This document shows positions 49,858 to 58,306 of a stretch of DNA of 64,000 nt, one piece after another. The position numbers and the translations under genes are program-made. Each line of letters begins with the position of its first letter. Position 1 is the stretch's first letter. The notes beneath the pieces are model-generated. The model was not told where the DNA came from. It saw nothing but the letters and a program-made list of their open reading frames with translations, and ran no database searches. The DNA comes from Thermococcus eurythermalis. Lineage in GTDB: Archaea > Methanobacteriota_B > Thermococci > Thermococcales > Thermococcaceae. The stretch lies in assembly GCF_000769655.1 (NCBI RefSeq), contig NZ_CP008887.1, positions 1,054,001 through 1,118,000 of the forward strand, written 5' to 3'.

Positions 49858-49915
49858 TCATATCTGTTCTGGGTGTGTAGAAAACCTTAATAGTCGCCCA
49901 GGTAAACTCAAAACG

Positions 49916-51352
49916 ATGTGCGAGTACGTCTACGAAAACGGTAAAAAGTGCCGTCTAAAGGCCGTCGAAGGGTCGAAATACTGTCCGCTCCACATCCCCT
50001 ATGAAGAAGGCGAGTCCTTAATGGGGGAGGAGATAAAAAACCTCAAGGACAAGACGTTTCAGCGCAGGCTTAACCGTGGTCAGAGCTATTTTGAGGGCGT
50101 CTACCTCTATGACGCCACTATAAAAGAATACCGGAGCGAGAAAATGCTTGTATTCAAGAACTCCCAGATTAAGAGCCTAGTAATCGAGGACTCCGAGTTC
50201 AAGGGGCTCATTCTCATTAACTCTACCGTCGATAGGGTGATACTCTTTCATTCCAAGATTGAGGTTCTGCTCGTCAAGGGCTCCACAGTCTTTGGGCTTA
50301 ACGTCCTTCAGGTTGACTTCTCCAGCAACATCTCGGTCAGGGATTCAAGCGTCAAGTACCTTATGCTGAACTCGACGCAGTATGTTGGTGAAAAGGCCGA
50401 GGAGAGCTACGGAGAGAAGAGCGCAAAGGGCGTGGTCGAGATTGCCGGACTCCGCGACGTGAGGAGGATTGGAATAAACACCCGCTATCCACTTCTCAGA
50501 AAAATCCTTGAAGAGCACGGGGTCAACGTCTCGGAAGGCGGCAGGAGGACCGTAAAAGTCAATTCTCTGATAATCCGGGACGTCTCTTTTGACGCCGCAC
50601 CCAGATACAAGCGTCAGGTCAGGCTTTCAATAGGCGGGTTTTCTGGGAATCTTGTTCTTGAGAACCTCGATGTGTTTGGTCATATTGAAATCAGCTGGAG
50701 CAACCTGAAGAGCCCGGAGTTCGTTCACGTGCTCATTCACAGCAACCTGATAATCAGGAAGTCCCACATTACCGTTGGGCCGACGTGGGCAATGACCGTT
50801 CTCCCGAGCCTGCCCATTGAGCTCACCGTTAGCGGGTTCATGATAATAGAGGACTGCCATTTCAACAACCCGTACGCCGAAGAGGTATTCTACCGCCTCG
50901 CGAGGACGAGCTGGGAGCGCAGCGGGGACTTTGAAAGGGCCGACGAGTACTACTACCTTGAGATGGTCGCCCGGAGGAAGGCCCGGCTGAAGGCAAGGAG
51001 AAAAGGGCTGAGAAAGCTCTTTGACCGTTTCGAAGTCCTCTTTGAGTGGCTCTTTGCCGACCTGACGTGCAAGTACGGGACTGACTGGAAGAGACCAATA
51101 CTGATATGGCTCTTCATCGTCAACGTCTTGTTTCCTGTCTTGTTCTTCGTGACGAAGAGTGTTCAGGGGCTTTCCAGCAGTCTAAGCTTCCTCGACTACG
51201 AGTACTTCAGCATCGTTACTGCCACGACGCTCGGCTACGGTGACTACCACCCGATAGGCGTGGGGAGGATTATAGCCTCAGTTGAGGCGCTTTTCGGAAT
51301 GTTTATGTGGGCGGTATTCCTGACGGTGTTCGCGAGGAAGTACATGAGGTGA
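49916..51352 (+). CDS. Fusion protein: zinc motif, beta-repeat domain and two-helix potassium-channel pore
   Basis: A 478-residue protein. Residues 1-28 hold C2, C12, C23 and H26 in MCEYVYENGKKCRLKAVEGS and CPLH, the spacing of a small zinc-binding motif. Residues about 60-340 are a regular run of short strands (LVFKNSQIKSLVIEDSEFKG, LILINSTVDRVILFHSKIEV) like a pentapeptide or beta-helix repeat. Residues about 345-395 are charged helix (ARRKARLKARRKGLRKLF). The C-terminus is a two-TM pore: helix IWLFIVNVLFPVLFFVTK, filter TATTLGYGDYHPIG (TLGYGD at 438-443), helix IIASVEALFGMFMWAVFLTV. Likely a potassium channel gated by its cytoplasmic domain. Start set by ATG 49916 after an AT-rich TATA (CCTTAATAG, 49885-49893); leader is short. 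Stop and next start are 4 bp apart. Confidence 0.8.
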   Translation: MCEYVYENGKKCRLKAVEGSKYCPLHIPYEEGESLMGEEIKNLKDKTFQRRLNRGQSYFEGVYLYDATIKEYRSEKMLVFKNSQIKSLVIEDSEFKGLILINSTVDRVILFHSKIEVLLVKGSTVFGLNVLQVDFSSNISVRDSSVKYLMLNSTQYVGEKAEESYGEKSAKGVVEIAGLRDVRRIGINTRYPLLRKILEEHGVNVSEGGRRTVKVNSLIIRDVSFDAAPRYKRQVRLSIGGFSGNLVLENLDVFGHIEISWSNLKSPEFVHVLIHSNLIIRKSHITVGPTWAMTVLPSLPIELTVSGFMIIEDCHFNNPYAEEVFYRLARTSWERSGDFERADEYYYLEMVARRKARLKARRKGLRKLFDRFEVLFEWLFADLTCKYGTDWKRPILIWLFIVNVLFPVLFFVTKSVQGLSSSLSFLDYEYFSIVTATTLGYGDYHPIGVGRIIASVEALFGMFMWAVFLTVFARKYMR

Positions 51353-51356
51353 TAAA

Positions 51357-52487
51357 ATGCGCGTCGGGCTGATTGTTAACCCCATAGCGGGCATGGGGGG
51401 AAAGGTCGCCCTCAAGGGCACCGACGGGGTTGTTGAGGAAGCTATCCGGCGTGGAGCGAGGCCAGTTTCGCCCGACCTCGTCAGGCTCTTTCTGCGGGAG
51501 CTGTCCCACTACCCTGGGGCCAGGTCCATAGTTTTTCTCACAGGGCCCGGGCCCCTCGGTGAGGACTACCTGCGGGAGTTAGGCTTTAAGTTTGAGGTCA
51601 TCCCCCTTGAAGTCCGCTACCGGGAGGTTGATGGAGTTGTAATACCCGACACGGGCCCGGAGCACACAAAGGCGCTGGCCCGTGAGATGCTCGACAAGGT
51701 AAGTCTGATACTCTTCGCGGGCGGTGATGGGACTGCAAGGGACATCGTGAGCGTCGTCGGTAAAAAAGTCCCAATCCTGGGGATTCCAACCGGAGTTAAG
51801 ATGTATTCCGGCGTTTTTGCCGTCTCCCCTGAGAAGGCGGTGGAAGTGCTTGTCAAGTTCCTGCGCGGGGAGGCCAGGCTGGAGGAGCGTGAGGTTAGGG
51901 ACATAGACGAGGACTCGTTCCGCCGTGATGAGGTCAGGGCAAAGACCTACTGGACTGCCCTCGTCCCGGTCGTGGAGAACCTCGTGCAGGGGAGTAAGGA
52001 GGCCGTGAAGGCCGACGAGAGTGAGGAGCTTGAGGCCCTCGCCGAGGCAGTCGCCGAGGAAATTCTTGAGAACGACGGTATCTACTTCCTGGGCTCAGGC
52101 TCGACAATAAAGCGCATAAAGGACAGTCTGGGCATAGAGGGAACGCTCCTCGGCGTTGACGTCGTCGAGGTGAAAGACGGCAGGGCGAGGCTCCTTGTCA
52201 AAGACGCGACGGAGCGGGACTTGCTGAGGTTCGTGGACGGGGATCCTAAGGTCGTCGTCACCGTCGTGGGCGGTGCGAACTTTCTCTTTGGGCGGGGCAA
52301 CCAGCAGTTCTCGGCGGAAGTCCTGAGGAGGATTCCCAGAGAGAACGTGCTCGTGGTCGCCACGCCCGACAAGGTTAAGGGGCCCATTAGAGTGTACACC
52401 GGGGACAGGGAAGTTGACGACAAGTTCAGGGGCTACCTGAGAGTTCGCGTGAGTTCGTGGATGGAGAGGCTTGTCAAGGTCATTTAG
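51357..52487 (+). CDS. ATP-NAD kinase-like protein (COG3199 type)
   Basis: A 376-residue cytoplasmic protein beginning MRVGLIVNPIAGMGGKVALK. The diacylglycerol/NAD-kinase signature LILFAGGDGTARDIV (GGDGT near residue 123) and GIPTGVKMYSGVFA identify the superfamily. The C-terminal half (GIYFLGSGSTIKRIKDSLG, VVGGANFLFGRGNQQFS) is specific to the archaeal/bacterial ATP-NAD kinase-like group, whose substrate is not settled. Its start is four bases after the channel gene stop, so the two are co-transcribed. Confidence 0.82.
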   Translation: MRVGLIVNPIAGMGGKVALKGTDGVVEEAIRRGARPVSPDLVRLFLRELSHYPGARSIVFLTGPGPLGEDYLRELGFKFEVIPLEVRYREVDGVVIPDTGPEHTKALAREMLDKVSLILFAGGDGTARDIVSVVGKKVPILGIPTGVKMYSGVFAVSPEKAVEVLVKFLRGEARLEEREVRDIDEDSFRRDEVRAKTYWTALVPVVENLVQGSKEAVKADESEELEALAEAVAEEILENDGIYFLGSGSTIKRIKDSLGIEGTLLGVDVVEVKDGRARLLVKDATERDLLRFVDGDPKVVVTVVGGANFLFGRGNQQFSAEVLRRIPRENVLVVATPDKVKGPIRVYTGDREVDDKFRGYLRVRVSSWMERLVKVI

Positions 52488-52539
52488 GCCCGCCGGAACC
52501 CATTTATACTTTCCCTGCTTTATTTTTTCGGGGATTCTG

Positions 52540-53445
52540 ATGAGGCACAGTAAGATAGCGTTTAAGGTTCTCGAAGCCGGGGAGCCGGTCTTCTACGACC
52601 CCGTTTACCACGGCAGGACGCTTAAGGTCTTTGGAATGGACGATTACCCGGTCAGGTTCATCTCCTATGCGGTCGGCGAGTACCAGAAGCTCGGGTATTC
52701 GGCGGTCGTTTTCGACACGACGGGAGAAGTTAAGGGCGACTTCGATACTGTGATTGAGGTTCGCGACGGTTCACCGCTTGGGCTCGACCCGATAAAGCTC
52801 TTCCGTGTGGGCTACTTTGACCCTTACACCGCCGTTTCCATAGTCCAGACGCTTTATGGCCTCGATAGGTCATTAACCGACAGGCTCTACGTTGACGTGC
52901 TCCTTAGGAAGGTCTCAAGCGTTCCTGAGGCCGTTAGAAGAGATGAGAAGTACTCGGAAGTCATACTTGAGAGCTACACACCGCTAGACGAGGCACTCTA
53001 CACGGGTGAGCTCCCTGAACTCAAGGGGAGCGTCCTTGTTAACCTCGGCGAAGCGCACAGTATAACCCTGGTTGGTGCCGTGTTCCTCACGCTCGCGGCG
53101 GCCTTTGAGAAGAGGCGCGAGACGGTTCTTGGCCTCGTTGACGGCGCCGTTCTCGCCTACACTCCCGCAGGGAGCGCCGCTCTGTCGCTCCTTACAAGGC
53201 CGCTGAGGACTAGGGTTACGGTCGTTGCCAGCCAGTATGCTACCGATTCGCTTCTGAACGTAGGGGGCCCAACTCTCCTTTTGTACCACGACCCCGACGT
53301 CCAGTTCCTTGTCTACGAGTCGAACGGTATCCCAATGGGCCCCGTGCGGAAGTACGTGAGCAAGGGAGATGGAGCATTGATATTGGTGAGTCCGGAGAGT
53401 GTTGACGTTATTTTTGGTGAGTTGCCCGAGGATGTACTCCAATGA
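52540..53445 (+). CDS. Hypothetical protein, possibly a degenerate ATPase-like domain
   Basis: A 301-residue soluble protein. I do not recognise it with confidence. RDGSPLGLDPIKLFRVGYFD and TAVSIVQTLYGLDRSLTDRL recall HerA/VirB4-type ATPases in the region after the P-loop, but no Walker A motif is present. The rest is alternating beta and alpha (GSVLVNLGEAHSITLVGAVF; LRTRVTVVASQYATDSLL). ATG 52540 follows GGGGATTCTG and a TATA-like TTATTTTTT; the open frame upstream overlaps the NAD-kinase-like gene and is not used. Confidence 0.5.
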   Translation: MRHSKIAFKVLEAGEPVFYDPVYHGRTLKVFGMDDYPVRFISYAVGEYQKLGYSAVVFDTTGEVKGDFDTVIEVRDGSPLGLDPIKLFRVGYFDPYTAVSIVQTLYGLDRSLTDRLYVDVLLRKVSSVPEAVRRDEKYSEVILESYTPLDEALYTGELPELKGSVLVNLGEAHSITLVGAVFLTLAAAFEKRRETVLGLVDGAVLAYTPAGSAALSLLTRPLRTRVTVVASQYATDSLLNVGGPTLLLYHDPDVQFLVYESNGIPMGPVRKYVSKGDGALILVSPESVDVIFGELPEDVLQ

Positions 53446-53504: not shown

Positions 53505-54110
53505 ATGGTGTATTATGAGCATGCCACAGACCCGGTTACGTTCGGGACGCTCTTTTTGGCATACTACCTCTCAATAATGGTGGCCGTACTCCTATGGTTC
53601 GCCACCTCGTACGAGTACATCAGAAAGGGTAACTACCGGCTGAAGCGGCTTGCGGGCTTTCTTGCGGTTGCTGTTGTCATAACGTCGCTTTCAGGGGCTG
53701 AACTGCTCGACGAGTACCTTTACCTCCACATGCCCTATGATGAAAAGATAACGTGCCTTTCGTCTTCCTGCATAATGTCTTCGGCCCTCATAACCGAGTA
53801 TGGCTTCAGCAGGGAAGAGTTGGAGGCTTTGGGTGTTCCCTCTTTTGGGGTCATCAACGTCTACCGTCTTGTTGATACGGGCATTTCCCACGACCTTAAA
53901 CTCCCAAAAAGGCTGAATCACATCGTCATGACGCGGCCGTGGCTGGTTCTGCCGGTGGTTGACGTCTACGTTTACGAAGTCTCGGAAGTCAACGGGACAA
54001 AGCGGATTGTGGACAAGGAGCACTACTATCTCGTGTGGCCGACGTCCCCGGGAGGGCTCCTGACTGAGAAGCTCAACTTCGAGTTCAGTGTGATGATTCA
54101 CAGCGGATAG
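53505..54110 (+). CDS. Hypothetical membrane protein
   Basis: A 201-residue protein with two predicted transmembrane segments (TFGTLFLAYYLSIMVAVLLW and LKRLAGFLAVAVVITSLSGA) at the N-terminus and a soluble, beta-rich C-terminal domain with a conserved-looking LSSSCIMSS loop and two cysteines. No family recognised. ATG 53505 is preceded by TGGTGAGTAAAAA. It stands alone between two convergent or divergent neighbours, with a T-run terminator (GTTTTTTT, about 53445-53451) ahead of it. Confidence 0.5.
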   Translation: MVYYEHATDPVTFGTLFLAYYLSIMVAVLLWFATSYEYIRKGNYRLKRLAGFLAVAVVITSLSGAELLDEYLYLHMPYDEKITCLSSSCIMSSALITEYGFSREELEALGVPSFGVINVYRLVDTGISHDLKLPKRLNHIVMTRPWLVLPVVDVYVYEVSEVNGTKRIVDKEHYYLVWPTSPGGLLTEKLNFEFSVMIHSG

Positions 54111-57547: not shown

Positions 57548-57940
57548 TCAACCCTCCAGAAAGCCTTTCGAAGTTAGATAGCGCCTCGTAAATTCGAGGA
57601 ATTCTTCGGCACGCCTTATGTTTTCGCGCGCCTCCTCCTCGGTGATGTCCACAACAAAGGAGTAATCGGCGGTCTGTCTGAGATTAAATGCGGTTCTTAG
57701 GTAAGTGAAAAACTTGTGGGGGATCTCTCCCGTCTTGACGAAATCTCTGCCCAGAAGTGCTATGACCGCAGAATGCTTCGAAACGCGTATGTTTTTGGTC
57801 ATAAGAATTGCCTCGGCGCAGTAAAACATAGAGTAGTACGCTCTTGAAAGTGCAAAGGCGTAGAAACCGTTTTCAAACAGTGTCCTGGCGGCCTCGATGC
57901 TCTTCCTGGCTTTCCTTAGTATCTCCGCGTACTCCCTCAT
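57548..57940 (-). CDS. HEPN-domain protein of an MNT/HEPN pair
   Basis: A 130-residue helical protein. The HEPN family stretch FYAFALSRAYYSMFYCAEAI near residue 30 and the RQTADYSF segment are typical; the R-X4-6-H catalytic motif of RNase-type HEPN toxins is not evident, so this may be a nucleotide-binding or substrate-binding partner. Start ATG 57940 overlaps the MNT stop by four bases. The MNT/HEPN pair is inserted between hypF and hypE. Confidence 0.85.
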   Translation of the reverse strand: MREYAEILRKARKSIEAARTLFENGFYAFALSRAYYSMFYCAEAILMTKNIRVSKHSAVIALLGRDFVKTGEIPHKFFTYLRTAFNLRQTADYSFVVDITEEEARENIRRAEEFLEFTRRYLTSKGFLEG

Positions 57941-58266
57941 ATCTTGATGCCCTCCGTGTGAACCGTTTGAATTAGCGGATCGTGCTCCATTTTCGCGTTT
58001 GTGGGATAGACAATAACCGAAATAACAAGCCCCCTGTCAAGGAGATACTTTTCAGTAACCTCGCTGAGCCTGTCGTATTCGTCGAGCGTCAACCTCCTCT
58101 TGACTATGATGAGGACGTCAACGTCGCTGTCTTCCCTCGCCTCTCCCCTAGCGTAGGAGCCGAAGAGTATGACCTCCACTAAGTCATCGCCGAGTATTTC
58201 TTTGGCTTTTTCCTTAACCTCCCGAAGGATATTAAGGAGTTCCTCTCGTGGTATCGTGGCCACCAC
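57937..58266 (-). CDS. MNT-type minimal nucleotidyltransferase
   Basis: A 109-residue protein with the polymerase-beta nucleotidyltransferase signature FGSYARGEAREDSDVDVLIIV (GS, then the DxD pair at about residues 45-47). MNT proteins pair with HEPN proteins; characterised MntA antitoxins add AMP groups to the HEPN toxin. Possible starts GTG 58266 and GTG 58263 follow AGGGGGGAG. It starts 41 bp after the hypF stop in the same direction. Confidence 0.88.
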   Translation of the reverse strand: MVATIPREELLNILREVKEKAKEILGDDLVEVILFGSYARGEAREDSDVDVLIIVKRRLTLDEYDRLSEVTEKYLLDRGLVISVIVYPTNAKMEHDPLIQTVHTEGIKI

Positions 58267-58306
58267 TCTCCCCCCTACGGCTTTCTGCGTTTCACCACTT
58301 AAACCT

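Follow-up and report, generated by a model that had tools for sequence, protein, structure and literature searches.

How a potassium channel can be gated when its soluble domain stands ahead of the pore and nothing follows the last membrane helix is the question raised by a gene of Thermococcus eurythermalis, which lies in the stretch of 64,000 nucleotides analysed here (the window). Prokaryotic K+ channels are understood mainly via sensors that follow the pore, such as RCK and cyclic-nucleotide-binding domains, or via voltage sensors. RCK-gated K+ channels such as MthK resemble the window protein in that a large soluble domain accompanies a two-helix K+ pore; in their case it is the gating domain. 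However, the RCK domain of MthK comes after the pore and pulls TM2, whereas the soluble domain of the window protein precedes TM1 and nothing follows TM2. The channel gene and its parts are as follows:

49886..49893, plus strand: TATA-like box CTTAATAG, about 25 bases upstream of the channel ATG (sequence)
49916..51352, plus strand: channel gene, 478 aa, comprising zinc motif, beta-helix, coupling helices and K+ pore (ORF, Pfam, AlphaFold2 model, 75 full-length orthologues)
49919..49993, plus strand: zinc motif C2, C12, C23, H26 (CEYVYENGKKCRLKAVEGSKYCPLH; ligands invariant in relatives)
50000..50074, plus strand: two helices before the beta-helix, residues 29-53 (AlphaFold2 model)
50087..50851, plus strand: right-handed beta-helix (crown), residues ~58-312, of degenerate pentapeptide-repeat type (model, VIA-align, Pentapeptide_3 matches of paralogues)
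50444..50623, plus strand: insertion in the beta-helix, candidate ligand site (conservation profile; putative ligand role)
50870..51088, plus strand: coupling helices, residues 319-391, ending in the invariant pre-TM1 stretch (EWLFADLTCKYGTDWKRP; AlphaFold2 model, conservation)
51089..51154, plus strand: TM1, residues 392-413 (AlphaFold2 model)
51188..51253, plus strand: pore helix and selectivity filter, with TTLGYGD at 51224-51244 (Pfam Ion_trans_2, model)
51260..51346, plus strand: TM2, residues 449-477 (AlphaFold2 model)

The ORF begins with the ATG at 49916 and runs over 478 codons to the stop at 51350-51352. These coordinates and the start codon are correct; the starts of the orthologues coincide with it, and these proteins likewise begin with Met-Cys. 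The position of the TATA-like box is compatible with a nearly leaderless transcript.

The C-terminal 80 residues constitute the two-helix K+ pore: Ion_trans_2 (PF07885) matches residues 399-476 with 53.7 bits (gathering cut-off 22.5), the pore helix comprises residues 425-438, and the filter TTLGYGD (residues 437-443) lies between two membrane helices. Together with an invariant Cys3His motif and a modelled beta-helix, this match bears out the initial annotation, which had proposed that a zinc motif and a beta-repeat domain precede a K+-channel pore in one fusion protein. Its second proposal, a sensor-first and pore-last order that is the reverse of RCK channels, holds as well: a Pfam scan of the window protein found no RCK (TrkA_N) domain, and the protein stops one residue past TM2 (RKYMR). 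A short basic tail right after TM2 is the chain end in every relative aligned. Neither a voltage sensor nor a known ligand-binding domain was found in the window protein by the Pfam scan.

The AlphaFold2 model was built on 47 sequences and has a mean pLDDT of 86.1. It assigns residues 1-27 to a zinc-type loop, whose residues C2, C12, C23, and H26 are unchanged throughout the 47 aligned family members. This Cys3His site presumably binds zinc; the profiles zf-C3Hc3H (13.8 bits, gathering cut-off 27) and zf-TRM13_CCCH (12.6 bits, gathering cut-off 20.9) match the window protein below their cut-offs. The initial annotation took the first 400 residues to be soluble, with strand repeats besides the zinc motif. 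The soluble part indeed comprises about 390 residues (1-391), and its strands are predicted with high confidence to form a right-handed beta-helix (residues ~58-312), but residues 319-391 are helices. In VIA-align, HetL (3du1) was superposed on the window model with a Z of 15.7 and an rmsd of 3.0 for 218 aligned residues; tailspikes and polygalacturonases score alike. The pentapeptide families PF00805, PF13576, and PF13599 gave no match in the window protein up to an E of 1, whereas thermococcal paralogues match pentapeptide families, among them Pentapeptide_3, at up to 6.6e-37. Because the window protein matches no such family while its relatives do, its beta-helix appears to be a diverged pentapeptide form. 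The repeat is of a known kind: many relatives carry recognisable, canonical pentapeptide repeats.

The conservation profile is highest in TM2 and the filter; the zinc loop and the coupling helices come next. The peak of the crown lies in the insertion, where the best-conserved polar residues of this domain (R183, N188, Y191, R233, R236) are found. The net charge of residues 172-235 is +6. The coupling helices span residues 319-336, 339-359, and 365-382 in the AlphaFold2 model, and conservation reaches 0.91-0.96 in residues 377-399. A glutamate and an arginine of the coupling helices are invariant from Thermococcus to Aeromonas, as are W, D, YG, and R directly ahead of TM1. Lysine and arginine residues are numerous before TM1 and after TM2, and a single one occurs in the TM1-TM2 loop; according to the positive-inside rule, the crown should therefore lie on the cytosolic side.

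Of the 94 Thermococcaceae genomes, 75 contain a full-length orthologue, and all six genera are represented among these. The beta-helix of the orthologues is fixed at 271-277 residues and has 55% identity. Compared to the nearest relatives, dN/dS of the complete gene lies at about 0.05-0.08, and the individual modules, the beta-helix included, have similarly low values; judged by these sequence data, all modules are under purifying selection. In two genomes that are otherwise complete, the orthologue is split by an apparent frameshift (G069:C2:300137-301581 and G080:C1:995563-997070; loci L050 and L049), which is either a true loss or a sequencing error. A few more truncated copies or fragments of the channel gene exist besides these two.

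The domain combination was also searched for across archaea, as the initial annotation had suggested. It was found in other Thermococci and in a haloarchaeon, and additionally in 80 Gammaproteobacteria. The order of zinc motif, beta-helix, coupling helices, and pore recurs in Thermococcus paralogues, in other families of the Thermococci, and, zinc motif included, in the haloarchaeon Halorarius. The 80 Gammaproteobacteria, which range from Aeromonas to Pseudoalteromonas, share this order and all possess Cys3His (72 were found by pattern, 8 have a longer spacing). The haloarchaeal and gammaproteobacterial genes (Aeromonas, Shewanella, Colwellia, Pseudoalteromonas), annotated as "Pentapeptide repeat-containing protein / potassium channel family protein", agree with the window gene in parts, order, zinc motif, and C-terminal end; unlike the window protein, they have recognisable pentapeptide repeats and an often shorter beta-helix (bacterial proteins ~320 aa). 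As the same module order occurs in distant archaea and bacteria, the combination of repeat region and pore is evidently old, and it is widespread in both domains. In phages, plasmids, and viral contigs, the window protein was matched only in part or at the level of the pore, and a viral structure library contained no convincing match across the whole protein. On a Halorarius halobius plasmid (L080:2963-3023), an in-frame GTG upstream of WP_255152795.1 adds a complete Cys3His motif; the annotated start of this protein appears to be too late.

The thermococcal paralogues (L053-L071, L178-L180) have the same coupling helices and pore as the window protein, and the zinc motif is mostly present. 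They differ in their clear pentapeptide repeats, their other neighbours, and, at the pyrH locus, a beta-helix of variable length. Those of loci L053-L071 lie between pyrH/PIN-type genes and an FAD-dependent oxidoreductase gene. Their median identity is 71% for the zinc end and 66% for coupling region plus pore; their beta-helix comprises 128-584 residues with an identity of 24-46%. The pattern suggests that the pore is constant and the sensor attached to it hypervariable. In two paralogues (L063:4995-6974 and L065:3384-5483) the filter reads ALVTSDPYV instead of TLGYGD, and others (L067, L068, L178) have TSLGYAN or TSLGYSN; these proteins possibly possess another selectivity or dead pores.

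A precedent for such a build came from structure comparison. The sole PDB entry which Foldseek matched to the window model with E < 0.001 was 9nyi, HalA in complex with oligodeoxyadenylate (E 5.8e-4, prob 1.00, 328 columns); note that the TM-scores of 0.30/0.41 are low and that, on the sequence level, the window protein reaches only 17.3 bits with the HalA profile NF051894, whose curated cut-off is 250. For the Aeromonas relative (320 residues, model pLDDT 88.5), HalA again ranked first (E 1.3e-6). VIA-align matched HalA to this model over 263 of 333 residues, a stretch that begins at residue 24 and extends to the C-terminus (Z 13.1, rmsd 7.3). The large rmsd indicates that the domains are set at different angles, and the colinearity of the match indicates that crown, coupling region, and pore follow each other in the same order in HalA. 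Generic K+ channels match the Aeromonas model only over about the C-terminal 90-100 residues. HalA is absent among the 50 matches listed by VIA-align for the window model, which has no bearing either way.

Sub-threshold matches to the HalA profile occur in 33 of 47 family members. Thermococcal paralogues match it in the pore and N-terminally (positions 16-111 in one, 51-125 in another), which suggests that the crown of HalA holds pentapeptide-like repeats. A profile of the coupling region retrieved no relative from the PDB sequences, HalA included, and when a paralogue or the family profile served as query against these sequences, generic K+ channel pores and not HalA were obtained; the evidence for a link to HalA consequently consists of the structure comparison and a weak profile match. 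HalA, the effector of the Hailong anti-phage system, shares with the window protein the succession of crown, coupling helices, and two-helix pore ending at TM2. In contrast, the beta-helix of the window protein is longer and degenerate, and its gene is a conserved chromosomal one with an NAD-kinase-like partner and no HalB. The zinc motif of the window protein may be a further difference.

The initial annotation knew of no gating mechanism for fusions of this kind. This statement can no longer be upheld: HalA is described as an ion channel held shut by DNA, namely blocked by poly-dA adducts of HalB (PMC13275509) and released upon the action of a phage exonuclease (PMC12657230). In the literature searched, no paper dealt with pentapeptide-type K+ channels of Thermococcus or with the function of the crown-first class.

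Directly 3' of the channel gene follows a second gene:

51346..51353, plus strand: Shine-Dalgarno-like GAGGTGAT of the partner gene, overlapping the channel stop codon (sequence)
51357..52487, plus strand: partner gene, NAD-kinase-superfamily protein, 376 aa (Pfam NAD_kinase 5e-22, NAD_kinase_C 1.6e-12)

In 72 of the 75 genomes, belonging to four genera, this gene has the same orientation as the channel gene and begins 7-64 bases after its end. As far as the sequence can tell, both genes are translationally coupled in the window. A second NAD_kinase match elsewhere in the genome scores better than the partner, which is therefore regarded as a divergent member of the superfamily. Eleven genomes possess the NAD-kinase-like gene without a full-length channel, and the gammaproteobacterial relatives have no conserved neighbour gene; thus the enzyme is not obligate for the mechanism, and in Gammaproteobacteria the channel needs no fixed genetic partner. 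The other neighbours of the channel gene in the window are NMD3, DUF424, an FAD-dependent oxidoreductase, and two conserved ORFs. In many Thermococcus genomes, the conserved ORFs 52531-53442 and 53505-54107 follow the gene pair on its 3' side; they have no Pfam or NCBIfam match.

On these grounds we consider it probable that the window protein is a tetrameric, K+-selective channel, whose own N-terminal crown gates it from the cytosolic side; tetramer, selectivity, and direction of gating are what we infer. The zinc motif would cap or anchor a right-handed beta-helix of pentapeptide-repeat descent, this crown would be the sensor, and the helical hairpin and interfacial helix (319-391) would join it to TM1. 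As the protein stops with the final turn of TM2, it has no C-terminal linker on which the gating force could pull in the manner of RCK channels. The force must instead travel along TM1 and the invariant interfacial residues 377-393, or the crown must touch the bundle crossing directly. The most likely trigger is a ligand bound to the crown, since the crown is large, conserved, and joined by conserved helices, and since HalA works in this manner. The weakest step of the explanation is the nature of this ligand: the gene pair and the basic insertion are weak hints of a nucleotide-like anion, and it is possible, though doubtful, that an anionic, nucleotide-like compound binds close to this conserved insertion. 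Such a compound may be a product or a substrate of the NAD-kinase-like enzyme translated together with the channel.

Other readings have to be weighed against this one. Pentapeptide-type beta-helices also serve as protein-binding scaffolds, and pentapeptide-repeat proteins often bind proteins, as is established for MfpA and Qnr with gyrase. The crown could accordingly be a docking scaffold for another protein, which places or assembles the channel, with gating by voltage, membrane tension, or none at all. The lack of a voltage sensor and of a known ligand-binding domain in the Pfam scan fits this idea, which is nevertheless unlikely: the coupling helices between crown and TM1 are conserved more strongly than a plain scaffold would need, and HalA, in the same arrangement, is gated by its crown. 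It is similarly unlikely that the channel responds to redox state or zinc, its pore being gated when Cys3His, perhaps together with C314 and C385, is oxidised. The three cysteines and one histidine of the motif are invariant in archaea and bacteria, C314 and C385 are at least 95% conserved, and a gene of the FAD-dependent disulfide reductase type lies upstream in the window; yet this neighbour is present in only part of the Thermococcus loci, distant relatives do not share C314 and C385, and the Cys3His spacing resembles a structural zinc knuckle.

The likeness to HalA also allows the protein to be read as a Hailong-type immune effector, whose channel is shut by a crown-bound nucleic-acid oligomer and opens upon loss of the oligomer during virus infection, thereby stopping the cell. 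HalA is the best structural match of both the window model and the Aeromonas relative, and the sub-threshold profile matches in 33 of 47 members point in the same direction. We judge this reading very unlikely, as the score of the window protein is far below the profile cut-off, which is reached in none of the 94 family genomes; moreover, no HalB above cut-off occurs in the genome (just motif matches of 20-31 residues), the gene is vertically inherited beside a metabolic gene, and a PADLOC scan of the window protein gave no match. An identification of the window protein as a HalA was rejected for its low score, the lack of HalB, and its ordinary chromosomal inheritance. A HEPN-MNT-type toxin-antitoxin pair is located at 57800-58290 of the window on the minus strand; its MNT nucleotidyltransferase is one of the weak HalB matches. 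An accidental or decaying fusion of a pore with unrelated repeats, for which the few frameshifted copies (G069, G080) might be cited, can practically be discounted. It is refuted by conservation: separate repeat and pore parts were looked for in close relatives, as the initial annotation had called for, and the two stay fused in 75 of 94 genomes, with dN/dS at ~0.05-0.08 and the same order in distant archaea and bacteria.

Returning to the crown-gated channel, a broader proposal is rather improbable in its entirety: there may be one ancient archaeal and bacterial class of zinc-capped beta-helix K+ channels, with interchangeable crowns on a common pore, fixed for housekeeping signals as in the window channel and hypervariable at other loci. 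HalA would then have branched off, as an immune form, from a nucleotide-gated ancestor, and what the thermococcal channel senses would be a product or substrate of the NAD-kinase-like enzyme encoded next to it.

The window channel is a conserved variant of a widespread, hardly studied build with one solved relative. It represents a crown-first class, with a beta-helix ahead of the pore and nothing behind it, which is conserved in Thermococcaceae and present in many marine bacteria. HalA provides a structural precedent for such a channel, making the ligand and the coupling to TM1 directly testable, and the conserved gene pair names the NAD-kinase-like protein as the first partner candidate.
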